Made by a program: the position numbers and the translations under genes. A DNA stretch of 64,000 bases from Acetatifactor sp. (GTDB taxonomy: Bacteria; Bacillota; Clostridia; Lachnospirales; Lachnospiraceae): contig JAFLRO010000001.1 in NCBI GenBank assembly GCA_022511425.1, positions 33,571 to 97,570 on the forward strand, written 5' to 3'. Positions 38,195-58,217 of this stretch are shown piece by piece. A model generated the notes under the pieces. It had not been told where the DNA came from. It worked only from the letters and a program-made list of their open reading frames with translations, and did no database searches. Every line of letters starts with the position of its first letter. The first letter of the stretch is position 1.

Positions 38195-39481
38195 ATGATA
38201 ATCAAAAAATTCGTACCCTGTATCTATCTGTATAACGGTCATGCAGTAAAGAACCTGACGGACAAAAGCGTGGTGGAGACAGACCCTCTGAGGATGGTTC
38301 ATCTTTACAATGAGAACAATGCCGACGAACTGATCGTGTTCGATATGTCCGAGGATGACGCAGAACATGATGCTGCACTGGAGATGATCAAGGAAATCTG
38401 CGCAATGGCAGAGATTGATGTGATCGGTGCAGGAAACATCAAGCGCATGGAGGATGTAAAAAAGCTGCTTTATGCCGGCTGTAAGCGCGCTATTTTAGAC
38501 TATGAGATGGCAGGCAATATTGCAGCCACCGAAGAGATCTCCCTGAAATTCGGACGTGACAAGCTATTAGCTTCATACAATGACCCTGCGGTTATAACTG
38601 AGAATAAAGAACTTCTGGAAAAATATATATCGGGACTGGTACTGATGAATCCTCATCAGATCCGGGAGACACAGGAGATCATCGGCCTGCCTTTTTATGT
38701 ACAGATCAACAATATCGCCCTCAACAAGCTGATGGAGATTTTCGCATACGATAATGTCTGCGGTGTTACTGGCAATGCCATCAATGACAACTACAAGGAA
38801 ATCCTGGCGCTTAAGACTCTCTGCAAAGAAAACGGTATTCAGGTGGAGACCTTTGAGGCTGCTTTCAAATGGGAGGATTTTAAGAAAAACAGCGACGGCC
38901 ATGTACCTGTAATCGTACAGGATTACCGCACCCGCGAAGTACTACAGATGGCTTACATGAATGAGGAGTCATATGACCAGACCATCCGCACAGGCAAGAT
39001 GACTTATTTCAGCAGAAGCAGACAGGAATTGTGGGTTAAGGGAGAGACCAGCGGTCACTATCAGTATGTGAAAAGTCTTACAGCCGACTGCGACATGGAC
39101 ACCATCTTAGCCAAGGTATCACAGGTGGGCGCAGCCTGCCACACAGGCGCCAGAAGCTGTTTTTTTAACGAGATTACCAAGAAGGATTATCAGGAAGCCG
39201 AGAATCCCCTCCAGGTATTCCAGGAGGTCTACGACGTAATCAAGGATAGAAAGATACACCCCAGAGAAGGCTCCTATACCAATTATCTCTTTGACAAGGG
39301 CATCGACAAGATCCTGAAAAAGCTGGGCGAGGAAGCCACAGAGATTGTCATTGCCGCCAAGAACCCCGGTGCCGGCGAGGTCAAATACGAAATCAGCGAT
39401 TTTCTGTACCACATGATGGTACTTATGGCAGAGAAAGACATTTCCTGGGAGGAGATTACAACAGAGTTGGCAAACAGGTAA
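38195..39481 (+). CDS. HisA/F-like barrel fused to HisI and HisE
   Basis: A 428-residue fusion. Residues 1 to about 225 resemble the HisF/HisA barrel (FVPCIYLYNGHAVKNL), residues about 234-335 are the HisI cyclohydrolase (LTADCDMDTILAKVSQVGAACHTG), and about 340-428 are the HisE pyrophosphohydrolase (LGEEATEIVIAAKN). HisI and HisE cover the second and third steps of the pathway. In the barrel the usual CID aspartate is tyrosine (CIY), so cyclase or isomerase activity is doubtful. hisH and separate hisA and hisF are not in the window. This is the last gene of the cluster. Confidence 0.9.
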   Translation: MIIKKFVPCIYLYNGHAVKNLTDKSVVETDPLRMVHLYNENNADELIVFDMSEDDAEHDAALEMIKEICAMAEIDVIGAGNIKRMEDVKKLLYAGCKRAILDYEMAGNIAATEEISLKFGRDKLLASYNDPAVITENKELLEKYISGLVLMNPHQIRETQEIIGLPFYVQINNIALNKLMEIFAYDNVCGVTGNAINDNYKEILALKTLCKENGIQVETFEAAFKWEDFKKNSDGHVPVIVQDYRTREVLQMAYMNEESYDQTIRTGKMTYFSRSRQELWVKGETSGHYQYVKSLTADCDMDTILAKVSQVGAACHTGARSCFFNEITKKDYQEAENPLQVFQEVYDVIKDRKIHPREGSYTNYLFDKGIDKILKKLGEEATEIVIAAKNPGAGEVKYEISDFLYHMMVLMAEKDISWEEITTELANR

Positions 39482-39768: not shown

Positions 39769-42700
39769 ATGAGAAAAGAACACATTCAGGGAACCTCCCG
39801 TCTGGATGAGGAGAAGCACCTGGAGGAGACACTTGCCGTAATCCGTGACAACATGGAGGAATACGGCCGCCAGGTCGGGAAAATGCAGGCCGACATCGAT
39901 GAGATGTTGGAGCATTACCACGACAATGACGTAGAAGTGTACACGATCCTGAGCAACACCATCACCATGCACGATCACATGAAGCGTGCGCTTTTGAGGA
40001 ATGAAAAGGCCTCGGACAAGCCCTATTTTGGCAGAATCGTCTTTCACGATCATGCTACAGACCGGGAAGAATCCCTCTACATCGGACGGGGCGGTATTTC
40101 CCGTGACACAACCCATCAACAAGTAGTGGATTGGCGTGCACCGGTGGCAACCGCCTATTATGAGAACGGGCTGGGAGAATGCTCGTACTCCGCACCGGAC
40201 GGAGAACCTGTGGAAATTGATCTAAAACTGAAACGCACCTACGAAATTGTAAAGGGACAACTGCAGGATTATTTTGACAGCGAAGTGATTTCTAACGACG
40301 AGCTGCTCACAAAGTATCTGGCGAGAAACAAACAGGCCGTTCTGGGTGAGATTGTTGCCACCATACAGAAGGAGCAGAATGAGATCATCCGCCGCTCCCC
40401 TTACCACAACACCATAGTCCAGGGAGTGGCAGGCTCCGGTAAGACCACTGTTGCAATGCACAGAATATCCTTCATTCTTTACAACTATGCAGAACGATTC
40501 CGGCCGGAGGATTTCTATATTGTGGGAAGTAACAGGATTCTATTGAACTACATCACCGGAGTACTGCCAGATCTGGACGTGTACGGAGTGCGACAGATGA
40601 CCATGGAGCAGTTGTTCGTCCGTCTGCTCTATGAGGACTGGGATGACAAGAAATATCGCATTAAAATGGGGATTTCGGCTTCTGACCGCGGGGATTCTGT
40701 CTCAGGAAACGGCGGAACGGTCTATGGTCGGAGTGAGCGGAAAGGAACCGCCGACTGGTTTAGGGAACTGCAAAAATTCTGTGATGACCTGGAGCGCGCA
40801 TCCATCTCCACAGAATCCATCTACCTGAATCCGAAACAGTTCGTTGAAGGTATCCAGGACGGAAAGAATGGAGTTTACGACAGAAGTACCGGAAAAGATG
40901 CGTTGATTCAGCTTGTGGACGGTGAGGCGGTGGAAAGGTATATTTCACAGAATCCCACGATATCTATCCAAAGCAAGATCAACATGCTAAACGATCGGCT
41001 GATGATAAAAATACATGATGAATTCCTGGGAAAAGGAATCAAATATACGGAAGAGGAGAGAAAGGCCATTTTGAAGGCCTATCGAAACAGATACGGAAGT
41101 AAGGTCTGGAAGCAGTCAACCTATGAGCTGTATCGGGAATTTCTTTTGAAACAGACAGAGACTGGGATAGAAATTACTCTGCCCGATAAGGAATTCGACG
41201 TATATGACTTGGCTGCCCTTGCTTACATCTACAAGCGTACTAAAGAAACGGAGGTAATAAGCGAGGCACACCATATTGTCATTGACGAGGCACAGGACTT
41301 CGGAATGATGATTTATCATTGCCTGCATGCCTGCATTAATGGCTGTACCTACACGGTTATGGGTGATGTCTCTCAGAACATACATTTCGGAGTAGGACTG
41401 AATGACTGGGAACCTCTCAGAAATCTGATTCTTACAGATCCAATGGATCATTTCGACACTTTGAAAAAGAGCTACCGGAACACGGTGGAAATTTCCAACT
41501 TTGCCACAGAAATCCTCCACCACGGAAGGTTTTTCCATTATCCTGTGGAGCCCATTATCCGCCATGGAAAAGAAGTTCAGGTAGAACAGATTAACGAAAA
41601 TACGTTTTATAAAAGAAGCGCTGAAATATGTCGTGACTGGCAGGAGAGAGGCCTTATGACGATAGCCTTGGTATGCAGGAATGCAAAGCAGGCGGAAATT
41701 GCAGCAAAAGCCCTTTCTCCCATGATCGACATTATGGAAACAGATTTGGAAAAAGCTGAATTTGGCAACGGTATCATGGTACTTCCGGTGGAATACACAA
41801 AAGGTTTGGAATTTGATGCAGTGCTGGTTCTTGACCCCACCAAGGAAGAGTATCCGGTTGATGACGGTCATGCAAAGCTACTCTATGTGGCTGCTACCAG
41901 GGCCCTGCATGAGCTCTGCATCCTTCACAGGGGAAATCTTACCGGACTGATTGCCGATCCTGTGCCTAAGGAAGATGGAGAAAGAAGCATTGATGAGCCC
42001 ACGGTTTCAGAAACTTCATCGGGCGAAGAGAGTACAATATCTGCAAAAAACACCTCCGCCATTGCTGACGTAGCTGCGCCCGTCAGCGTCACCGCCACAG
42101 TTCCAGTGCCAAAGCAACGCCCAGTTCCAGCGCCAAAACAACGCCCGAGAGCCACAATAGTTCTCAAGTCCAATCCCACGCCTGAGACACCGGCTCACGT
42201 AAAGCCCATGACCTCATATGCCGCTCACCCCGTGCAGCCCATACCCGGTTCTGCCGGGAAACCAAAAGCAAGCACATCCTCAGACCTTCCGAAGTTCGGA
42301 GCAGAAGTGCCTTCAGAAAAACTTCGGCTCTCGGGCCATACCAAGATTGACCTGTCCGTCCGCTGGATCACAAAGAACCCCGACGGACTTTACCTGCATA
42401 GTCGTTATGGCATTTTGCGCCTGAGCCCAATAAACAGCAATATCATCCGCATTACCTTTGCCAAGGGCGGCAGCCTTGCAAAGGTGCGCCATCCTTTGAT
42501 TGCAGTGGACAGACTGGAGCGCTTCTGGACTTACAAAGACGCCGGAGGAGTAGTGGAACTGGCAACAGACGAACTGTTGCTCAGAGCCGAAAAAACTTCC
42601 GGAAGCTTAAGTTTTTATAACCGCGACAAAAAACTTCTTCTGACGGAGCGCGACAGAGAGTGCCGACAGATAGAATACATCTCTCAGGAAACGACAAGAT

Positions 42701-43011
42701 GCTGGATTATCCTGAATACTGCAAAAAAGGAACAGCTCTTCGCATTGGAGAATACAGGTACGGAACCCATCTCTCTAAACGGCGTTGCACGGTATATCAA
42801 CGTTTCATGGAATGACAGTCTCCCTTTCCTGTTTTCCGACAGGGGCTGGGGGCTGCTGATTCCCACAGACGGGACTGTCATTTGCAATCCGGCCTCCCAG
42901 GGTACATGTCTCTGCGTGGAAGGCCAGGAGCAAATGGATATGTACTTTATCGCAGGTAACGATGTCGGGACAATGAAAAACGCTTGTAAATTCTTATATG
43001 GAAGGCTGTGA
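39769..43011 (+). CDS. HelD-type RNA polymerase-recycling ATPase fused to a GH31-N-like domain
   Basis: A 1080-residue protein, about 300 longer than typical HelD. HelD, a UvrD-like ATPase, frees stalled or idle RNA polymerase. The N-terminal coiled arm (1-150) is followed by Walker A GVAGSGKTT near 219, VIDEAQD near 503, GDVSQNIHFG, and LLYVAATRALHEL near 704. After an acidic, proline-rich linker (about 725-845, with VPKQRPVPAPKQRP) comes a roughly 230-residue region with LPFLFSDRGWGLLIP and YFIAGNDVGTMKNACKFLYG. Those phrases match the beta-sandwich that precedes the GH31 barrel; the barrel itself is absent. The 3' end overlaps the convergent gene by 18 bases. Confidence 0.85.
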   Translation: MRKEHIQGTSRLDEEKHLEETLAVIRDNMEEYGRQVGKMQADIDEMLEHYHDNDVEVYTILSNTITMHDHMKRALLRNEKASDKPYFGRIVFHDHATDREESLYIGRGGISRDTTHQQVVDWRAPVATAYYENGLGECSYSAPDGEPVEIDLKLKRTYEIVKGQLQDYFDSEVISNDELLTKYLARNKQAVLGEIVATIQKEQNEIIRRSPYHNTIVQGVAGSGKTTVAMHRISFILYNYAERFRPEDFYIVGSNRILLNYITGVLPDLDVYGVRQMTMEQLFVRLLYEDWDDKKYRIKMGISASDRGDSVSGNGGTVYGRSERKGTADWFRELQKFCDDLERASISTESIYLNPKQFVEGIQDGKNGVYDRSTGKDALIQLVDGEAVERYISQNPTISIQSKINMLNDRLMIKIHDEFLGKGIKYTEEERKAILKAYRNRYGSKVWKQSTYELYREFLLKQTETGIEITLPDKEFDVYDLAALAYIYKRTKETEVISEAHHIVIDEAQDFGMMIYHCLHACINGCTYTVMGDVSQNIHFGVGLNDWEPLRNLILTDPMDHFDTLKKSYRNTVEISNFATEILHHGRFFHYPVEPIIRHGKEVQVEQINENTFYKRSAEICRDWQERGLMTIALVCRNAKQAEIAAKALSPMIDIMETDLEKAEFGNGIMVLPVEYTKGLEFDAVLVLDPTKEEYPVDDGHAKLLYVAATRALHELCILHRGNLTGLIADPVPKEDGERSIDEPTVSETSSGEESTISAKNTSAIADVAAPVSVTATVPVPKQRPVPAPKQRPRATIVLKSNPTPETPAHVKPMTSYAAHPVQPIPGSAGKPKASTSSDLPKFGAEVPSEKLRLSGHTKIDLSVRWITKNPDGLYLHSRYGILRLSPINSNIIRITFAKGGSLAKVRHPLIAVDRLERFWTYKDAGGVVELATDELLLRAEKTSGSLSFYNRDKKLLLTERDRECRQIEYISQETTRCWIILNTAKKEQLFALENTGTEPISLNGVARYINVSWNDSLPFLFSDRGWGLLIPTDGTVICNPASQGTCLCVEGQEQMDMYFIAGNDVGTMKNACKFLYGRL

Positions 43012-43347
43012 GACATCCGTTGCCCATGTCTCTATCACCTCTTCAAAGTCGGCCGAGATTGCCTGGAAGATTCTTTCAGCGGTGATCCCGGCCACACTTA
43101 TGCCGTTTACATCCATGAAAATCACAAATCCCAAAAGTCCCGCCGCCAGAGCCAGACGCACACGGAAAAATGCGGGATTCTCCGGCACCGTGCCTTCCTC
43201 CTGCGGTGTTTCCAGCCCCTCCACAGGCCGACTGCTTCTTCCGTAAAGGATTTTCTCCCGGTTGGACATATCATACTGATTCTCATTATACCTGGAGCGT
43301 ATCTGTTTCAACAGTTGCAATCTTTTCTCCGTACTAGCATCACTCAT
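42994..43347 (-). CDS. small membrane protein of unknown function
   Basis: A 117-residue protein. A charged N-terminus (EKRLQLLKQIRSRYNENQ) leads to one transmembrane segment near residues 64-82 (VRLALAAGLLGFVIFMDV) and a short acidic tail outside or inside the cell. The family is not recognised. It is divergent from the MoxR operon and convergent with, and overlapping, the 3' end of HelD. Confidence 0.7.
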   Translation of the reverse strand: MSDASTEKRLQLLKQIRSRYNENQYDMSNREKILYGRSSRPVEGLETPQEEGTVPENPAFFRVRLALAAGLLGFVIFMDVNGISVAGITAERIFQAISADFEEVIETWATDVSQPSI

Positions 43348-57137: not shown

Positions 57138-58217
57138 ATGGGCAACTCCTTGGCAATTATAAATTCAAACAATTATCATGATGAACAGAATAAGCAGAAT
57201 ATTCTGAAGATGCGTGCTGTGTTGGAAACTCTTCCCTCTTTCTGCAGAACCTATTTTCGTGGCATTGAGGAGTATACATCCGCTCGCACGAGACTGGCTT
57301 ATGCCTATGATATCCGGCTCTTTTTTGAATTTCTACACGAAAAAAATCCAATTTGTTCAAAACTTGAAATCATAGACTACCCTCTCTCTATCCTGGATCA
57401 ACTGACCCGTATTGACATTGAAGAGTATCTGGAATATATGTCTCTTTATCAAAAAGACGGTAGAGAGATCACTAACGATGAACGTGGAAAAGCCCGAAAG
57501 CTGGCAGCACTTCGCAGCTTCTACAACTATTTCTATCAGAATGAGATGATAACAAAAAATCCGGCATCCCTGGTTCCCCTTCCTAAACAGCACGAAAAGG
57601 CAATTATCCGACTTGAGCCTAATGAGGTTGCCATTCTTCTGGATCAGGTGGAAGATGGAACAAAATTGACTAAAAAGGAACTGGAGTACCACAAGAAAAC
57701 TAAAATCCGCGACATAGCCTTGCTGACGCTGCTCTTAGGCACGGGAATCCGTGTATCCGAGTGTGTTGGTCTGGATGTGTCAGACGTGAATTTTGACGTT
57801 GGCGGAATTAAGGTAAGACGCAAAGGCGGATATGAAGCAATCATCTATTTTGGTGAAGAAGTAGAAACAGCACTGTTGGACTATCTTGAACAGAGAGAAT
57901 TGGTCATACCGGCTGAAGGTCATGAGGATGCGCTTTTCCTGTCGCTCCAGAATCGGCGTATTGCCGTGCGTTCCGTAGAAAACCTTGTGAAAAAATATAC
58001 TTCCCGAGTGACTCCTCTTAAGAAAATTACGCCTCACAAGCTGAGGAGTACCTATGGCACTACTCTCTATCAGGAATCAGGGGACATATATCTGGTTGCA
58101 GATGTTTTAGGTCATAAAGATGTTAATACCACTCGTAAGCATTATGCAGCACAGGCGGATGAACGCCGCAGAAAAGCTGCAAAATATGTGCGTCTACGGG
58201 AAGACACGGAACAATAG
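57138..58217 (+). CDS. tyrosine recombinase, XerS-like
   Basis: A 359-residue site-specific recombinase. Catalytic residues are all visible: Arg in GTGIRVSE, Lys in VRRKGGY, His and Arg in TPHKLRSTYG, His in VLGHKD and the Tyr in TTRKHYAA. The length and N-terminal layout resemble the single-chain XerS type that acts alone at a chromosome-dimer site, rather than the 300-residue XerC/XerD. The ATG touches GAAAGG; the TTG at 57150 is an alternative start. Its target site and host function are not known. It neighbours lexA. Confidence 0.82.
   Translation: MGNSLAIINSNNYHDEQNKQNILKMRAVLETLPSFCRTYFRGIEEYTSARTRLAYAYDIRLFFEFLHEKNPICSKLEIIDYPLSILDQLTRIDIEEYLEYMSLYQKDGREITNDERGKARKLAALRSFYNYFYQNEMITKNPASLVPLPKQHEKAIIRLEPNEVAILLDQVEDGTKLTKKELEYHKKTKIRDIALLTLLLGTGIRVSECVGLDVSDVNFDVGGIKVRRKGGYEAIIYFGEEVETALLDYLEQRELVIPAEGHEDALFLSLQNRRIAVRSVENLVKKYTSRVTPLKKITPHKLRSTYGTTLYQESGDIYLVADVLGHKDVNTTRKHYAAQADERRRKAAKYVRLREDTEQ

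Follow-up and report, generated by a model that had tools for sequence, protein, structure and literature searches.

The HelD-tail gene and its surroundings

The window, by which we mean the whole 64,000-nucleotide stretch of DNA analysed here, contains a gene whose product joins a HelD core to a folded C-terminal tail through a disordered linker, with the following features:

39769..43011, forward strand, the whole HelD-tail gene, 1080 amino acids plus stop, its frame open and uninterrupted
39769..41955, forward strand, HelD core, residues 1-729, with a Gre-like N-terminal coiled coil, a UvrD-like ATPase, and an inserted helical part, the candidate arm
40423..40446, forward strand, Walker A GVAGSGKT, residues 219-226, invariant or near-invariant in 28 aligned orthologues
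41284..41295, forward strand, Walker B / motif II DEAQ, residues 506-509, invariant in 28 aligned orthologues
41956..42294, forward strand, A/P/S/K-rich disordered linker, residues 730-842 (AF2 pLDDT about 28-33 over residues 733-838)
42295..42354, forward strand, tail-specific motif F-G-(D)-x-P-x-x-E-x-L-x-P-x-G-H-x-K-I-D, residues 843-862, immediately before the sandwich
42322..43008, forward strand, GH31-N-type beta-sandwich tail, residues 852-1080, from profile, Pfam, and fold matches
42790..42816, forward strand, degenerate remnant of the GH31 'N-loop', RYINVSWND here and YLHQANxK in GH31 relatives
42964..42996, forward strand, C-terminal helix, residues 1066-1076, corresponding to the 'Y..LTGK' element of GH31s, after which the barrel follows

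HelD clears stalled RNA polymerase (RNAP) and gives protection from rifampicin in model Gram-positives, with the HelD literature, to our knowledge, almost entirely devoted to B. subtilis and mycobacteria. The 1080-residue protein matches the NCBIfam model HelD_BACSU (4.8e-96, 322.4 bits) without reaching its curated equivalog cut-off of 419 bits, which makes it a homologue of B. subtilis HelD but no strict equivalog, and a PDB search returns the B. subtilis enzyme itself (6wvk, 1.7e-65), with the alignment beginning at residue 60. The SF1 ATPase motifs GVAGSGKT, DEAQ, GDxSQ, YRNT, YTKGLEFDAV, and ATRALHE are intact, with most of their residues invariant across the 28 orthologues, and the UvrD Pfam domains of the core score over cut-off. 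In the full-length AF2 model, predicted helices at residues 11-49 and 55-83 form the Gre-like coiled coil (the secondary channel arm), followed by a small beta domain at 88-170, and helices 328-464 are inserted between the two ATPase halves as a candidate bumper/clamp arm, their sequence being too divergent for alignment. These features show the protein to be, by homology, a HelD-type RNA-polymerase-recycling motor of Lachnospiraceae with an added tail, predicted on that same basis to bind RNAP and release nucleic acids. An earlier note on this DNA had described a complete HelD with a tail at 42316-43011 (residues 850-1080), and both are present, together with the three motifs quoted there.

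The gene is preceded by hisD, hisB, and a HisIE fusion, and followed by a converging small ORF and then by MoxR, DUF58, a DUF4129-like membrane gene, and a TIGR03960 radical-SAM gene, with the order his, HelD, MoxR/DUF58 common to many relatives. The converging ORF (42994-43347, reverse strand) encodes 117 residues with a probable membrane segment, overlaps the 3' end of HelD by 18 bp, and holds a conserved position in many relatives; no Pfam model matches it. Upstream (38195-39481, forward strand), a truncated HisA/HisF-like domain (PF00977 positions 3-126 of 228 only, E = 1.1e-15) stands ahead of HisIE in a fused protein, a further instance, next door to HelD, of a domain taken from an enzyme and joined to a housekeeping protein. 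A phage-type integrase gene (PF00589, 6e-32) lies at 57138-58217 on the forward strand.

Homology of the tail to the GH31 N-terminal domain

Searched as a single sequence, the window tail has no match among the Pfam and NCBIfam models, and its sole PDB match is a weak one to BoGH31A (E = 0.33). A profile of the tail (A1), built from an alignment of 40 orthologous tails obtained by genome searches, matches the GH31 alpha-xylosidases 5jou (2.7e-16), 7kmp (5.2e-14), and 2xvg (6.3e-12), with 25 of the 40 tails also matching PF13802, the GH31 N-terminal galactose-mutarotase-like domain (best 1.3e-8). When modelled by AF2 (pLDDT 91.3, pTM 0.90), the tail has GH31 N-domains as its best Foldseek matches (E = 9e-11), and the top-ranked entries in VIA-align are likewise GH31 enzymes, with residues 25-258 of 6jr6 superposing at Z 26.4 and an rmsd of 2.6 over 215 residues. 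In a tree, all tails form one group against the GH31 N-domains (support 99/90). Taken together, the profile and the predicted fold show the tail to be a true homologue of the GH31 N-terminal beta-sandwich, of an alpha-xylosidase-like subfamily. The earlier note had named this domain and proposed comparing a predicted structure with it; profile, fold, and phylogeny all bear the identification out.

Full-length GH31s of ~795 residues from the window's order match the tail profile at up to 2.4e-51, with the two that were checked, L174 and L178, each carrying PF13802, PF01055, PF21365, and PF17137. In L174 the alignment to the tail profile stops at residue 272 and the PF01055 barrel starts at 274, so the window tail terminates at the domain boundary of the enzyme. 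No (beta/alpha)8 barrel (PF01055) is found by Pfam in the window ORF, which finishes at that boundary, in agreement with the earlier suggestion that the sequence ends just where a barrel would start and includes no glycosidase. The presence of a GH31 N-domain on HelD explains why databases attach a sugar-enzyme label to proteins unable to be glycosidases. The C-terminal helix that corresponds to the lead into the barrel is absent from one divergent group of orthologues.

The window linker spans ~110 residues, with folding resuming from residue 843 in the full-length AF2 model; across orthologues its length, counted up to residue 852, ranges from 82 to 266 (median 123.5). The full-length model, computed from an alignment of 28 sequences, has a pTM of 0.42, so the tail is without a predicted place on the core and we claim no domain interface. 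These observations bear on the main rival to the function proposed below, in which the tail works inside HelD as an intramolecular regulator, either by packing against the ATPase body or against the arms, or by dimerising HelD. The flexible tie to the ATPase body, the inheritance of the tail with one HelD clade, and the dimeric RNAP complexes, linked to hibernation, that B. subtilis HelD makes (PMC7749165) are all consistent with such a regulator, however no fixed placement of the tail is predicted, AF2 with 28 sequences being weak here, and GH31 accessory domains make no oligomeric contacts according to the authors of the XacXyl31 study (PMC8245568). We consider an intramolecular role rather unlikely.

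Distribution and history of the fusion

A scan of named genomes with A2, a closer subset of the tail alignment, located 80 loci with the tail, in Acetatifactor, Eisenbergiella, Blautia (a MAG), and other Lachnospiraceae or Clostridia, which answers the earlier call for a search for further tailed HelDs with many Lachnospiraceae species. Tail and HelD core lie within one ORF at 77 of these loci, with two of the others cut by contig ends and one frame-split. Fused ORFs of >1000 residues were recovered from six genera in an order-wide search of 392 genomes, all belonging to the window's family, and a class-wide search of 391 genomes found no fusion outside that family, the Lachnospiraceae. The window's own genome is a draft of 198 contigs, which might suggest that the fusion is an artefact of assembly or sequencing, or a HelD-glycosidase chimera turned pseudogene. 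The same fusion recurs, however, in independent assemblies and in isolates grown in culture, namely Acetatifactor muris DSM 23669, Eisenbergiella porci, Lachnospiraceae bacterium 10-1, and bacteria D16-50 and 1xD8-48, and we reject this explanation, whose probability we take to be negligible; the sequencing fusion that the earlier note had raised against its own reading can be set aside likewise.

HelDs that are at most 50% identical, in the window's genus and others, are mostly tailless, with ORFs of about 700 residues, and many species of Lachnospiraceae and of Lachnospirales have tailless HelDs. On the HelD-core tree, the tail is gained once, where a clade of 52 rows begins, and lost once, a result subject to the rooting and to long branches, with treekit warning of long branches that meet outside the clade. 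The loss is seen in L072 (genome G042), where a HelD 73% identical is cleanly without the tail, with linker and downstream gene retained; this locus offers a natural tail deletion for comparison. A tailless HelD also occupies the same locus in a member of the window's genus (L086), with HisIE upstream and the converging ORF and MoxR downstream. This HelD is only 39% identical to the window core, as would follow from replacement at the locus or from tail loss with fast divergence.

Among informative pairs, dN/dS is about 0.05-0.30 for tails and 0.04-0.19 for cores, with several pairs synonymously saturated and the near-identical pair L169/L170 uninformative for the tail. Tails evolve faster than the core, with the window and L032 sharing 60% identity in the tail and 86% in the core. 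In the trees built from the sampled sequences, the GH31-N fusion arose once, and purifying selection has kept the tail in a large HelD clade.

A search of 61 genomes of the window's order found no RNAP delta subunit, with delta detected in the B. subtilis and L. lactis controls. We also considered the tail as a replacement for delta and rejected the idea: delta is missing throughout the order as searched, in species with and without tails, and its absence by itself therefore cannot explain the tail.

Changes in the tail and possible functions

Comparison of 49 tails with 18 GH31 N-domains reveals the loss of several elements. The LGQ motif is present in 16 of the 18 N-domains and in none of the tails, the xDG hairpin, some 38 residues long and scored by pattern, in 15 of 18 and in a single tail, and the xQxN active-site loop in 15 of 18 and again in no tail. 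From our reading of the alignment, this last element corresponds to the GH31 N-loop, in which Q and N are conserved in 100% and K in 94% of the GH31 relatives. In GH31 glucosidase II the N-loop is part of the active-site pocket, with an Asp in the loop contacting the +1 sugar (PMC4742823). The full-length enzyme L178 (G452:C18) also lacks most of the ~38-residue hairpin, with an N-domain of 235 compared with about 262 residues, and resembles the tails in this respect, yet its HQAN loop is kept.

These losses bear on the proposal that the tail senses a carbohydrate or other ligand and so couples nutrient state to HelD activity. Such a sensor would be in keeping with the homology of the tail to a glycosidase accessory domain of galactose-mutarotase-like fold, and with the abundance of glycosidases in gut bacteria. 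However, all or nearly all tails have lost the N-loop (QxN), LGQ, and hairpin that the GH31 relatives conserve, and in XacXyl31 the DUF4968 domain lies outside the active-site interface, in which the PA14 domain alone takes part according to the authors (PMC8245568). Furthermore, the HelD genes adjoin his, MoxR/DUF58, and radical-SAM genes, with no sugar-pathway genes found in the HelD neighbourhood of the window or its relatives. With the sugar-facing residues of GH31 lost from the tails, a sugar sensor is disfavoured, though sequence comparison could miss a new site, and we regard a sensing role as very unlikely. The function that the earlier note had put first is thus unsupported, whilst the alternative it offered, a reused fold for binding polymerase, fits the sequence data better.

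The tails have also acquired features of their own. The motif at residues 843-862 is strongly conserved among 104 tails (F 97%, G 99%, L 99%, G 96%, H 93%), compared with a mean conservation of 17% in the 15 residues that precede it, and no counterpart of this FG-D-x-P...GH motif was found in the GH31 relatives. Additionally, net charge per 100 residues shifts from -2.1 in GH31 N-domains to +3.1 in the tails (Mann-Whitney p 1.6e-10, a statistic that ignores the kinship of the sequences). At the position of K986, all tails have a basic residue and 72% of GH31s an acidic one, with K923 similarly basic in 96% of tails and acidic in 61% of GH31s; R865 is basic in 94% of tails compared with 11% of GH31s, and R1008 in 88% compared with 0%. 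The basic charge of the tails could be a mere side effect.

Whether the tail might be a passenger, retained to aid folding, stability, or solubility and having no partner of its own, can be judged against the same features. The faster evolution of the tail, its loss in G042, and the missing last helix in one orthologue group agree with a passenger, however dN/dS lies well below 1, only a single loss is seen among the 52 sampled HelDs of the clade, and neither the near-invariant new motif nor the fixed charge reversals would be expected of one. We consider a passenger unlikely, and more so than a regulator acting within HelD.

Our preferred reading, which we hold tentatively and regard as plausible if short of probable, is that the GH31-N fold has been reused as a tethered docking module for RNAP or nucleic acid. 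We infer this from a tail that is folded, tethered, and selected, that has lost its sugar-facing parts, and that has gained basic residues and a motif. The net-basic tail, bearing the new motif together with R865, K923, K986, and R1008, would extend on its disordered leash from the HelD ATPase body to a second site on RNAP or, alternatively, to DNA or RNA under displacement. Docking of this kind may concentrate HelD locally at stalled complexes, or may steady the open clamp. In B. subtilis the C-terminal end of HelD, at residue 774, lies in D2, with D1/D2 reaching around the beta2 lobe (PMC7749165), so a large part of the polymerase surface, or displaced nucleic acid, could lie within range of a leashed tail. 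Against docking, the faster evolution of the tail is a poor fit with the binding of a large, strongly conserved polymerase surface. The orthologue group without the helix and the tail loss in G042 indicate that the function of the tail is not indispensable.

As a selected, folded module at a flexible end, the tail would be a natural handle on the recruitment or release of HelD without delta, in abundant gut anaerobes. It is possible, though we put this less firmly than docking itself, that in gut Lachnospiraceae a whole HelD subfamily employs a glycosidase domain, now decommissioned, as an RNAP- or nucleic-acid-docking arm or as a ligand-gated switch, giving lineage-specific recycling in delta-less bacteria. 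The fusion is also a clear example of an accessory domain being freed from its glycosidase and reused, with its closest enzyme relatives identified.

The tailed architecture has been met before. The Methods of Newing et al. 2020 name a 'DUF4968 domain-containing protein' category among HelD-like sequences (PMC7749167), and DUF4968 is the GH31 N-domain, comprising residues 38-219 and 372-391 of XacXyl31, or 7kmp (PMC8245568), the second-best PDB match of the tail profile; these proteins almost certainly have the same architecture. The main text of that paper discusses no identity, function, or distribution of DUF4968 HelDs, and the text of a 2021 survey of HelD diversity (PMC8655204) is without the tailed architecture. 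The earlier view that such a protein had not been described therefore stands as regards discussion in these texts but not as regards the hits themselves, and the architecture, already seen as a database category, is not wholly new. The present analysis adds an identification from profile and fold, the distribution, a history with a single gain, the test of selection, the losses at the enzyme site, and the tail-specific motif.

With class I HelD (B. subtilis; PDB 6WVK, 6ZCA; NCBIfam NF041464), the window protein shares a UvrD-like ATPase with intact motifs, a Gre-like N-terminal coiled coil, and probably a helical arm inserted in D1, and differs from B. subtilis HelD in having an extra linker and GH31-N domain beyond D2. 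The N-domains of the GH31 alpha-xylosidases BoGH31A, XacXyl31, CjXyl31A, and MeXyl31, and of Lachnospirales GH31s such as L174, share the fold of the tail end to end and are clearly homologous to it in sequence, however the window protein has no barrel, and the tails are without the active-site N-loop and hairpin, with the N-terminal motif and basic charge being new. Docking by the tail would resemble that of PcrA, whose C-terminal Tudor domain, a linker-tethered beta fold, docks this SF1 helicase on RNAP (PMC8318588). The Tudor domain of PcrA/UvrD is likewise small, beta-rich, and carried on a disordered C-terminal leash by an SF1-type, RNAP-bound motor (PMC8318588), but it has an unrelated fold, is about a quarter to a third the size of the window tail, and has as its partner in PcrA the helicase interaction motif of RpoB, making its likeness to the HelD tail a functional analogy only.
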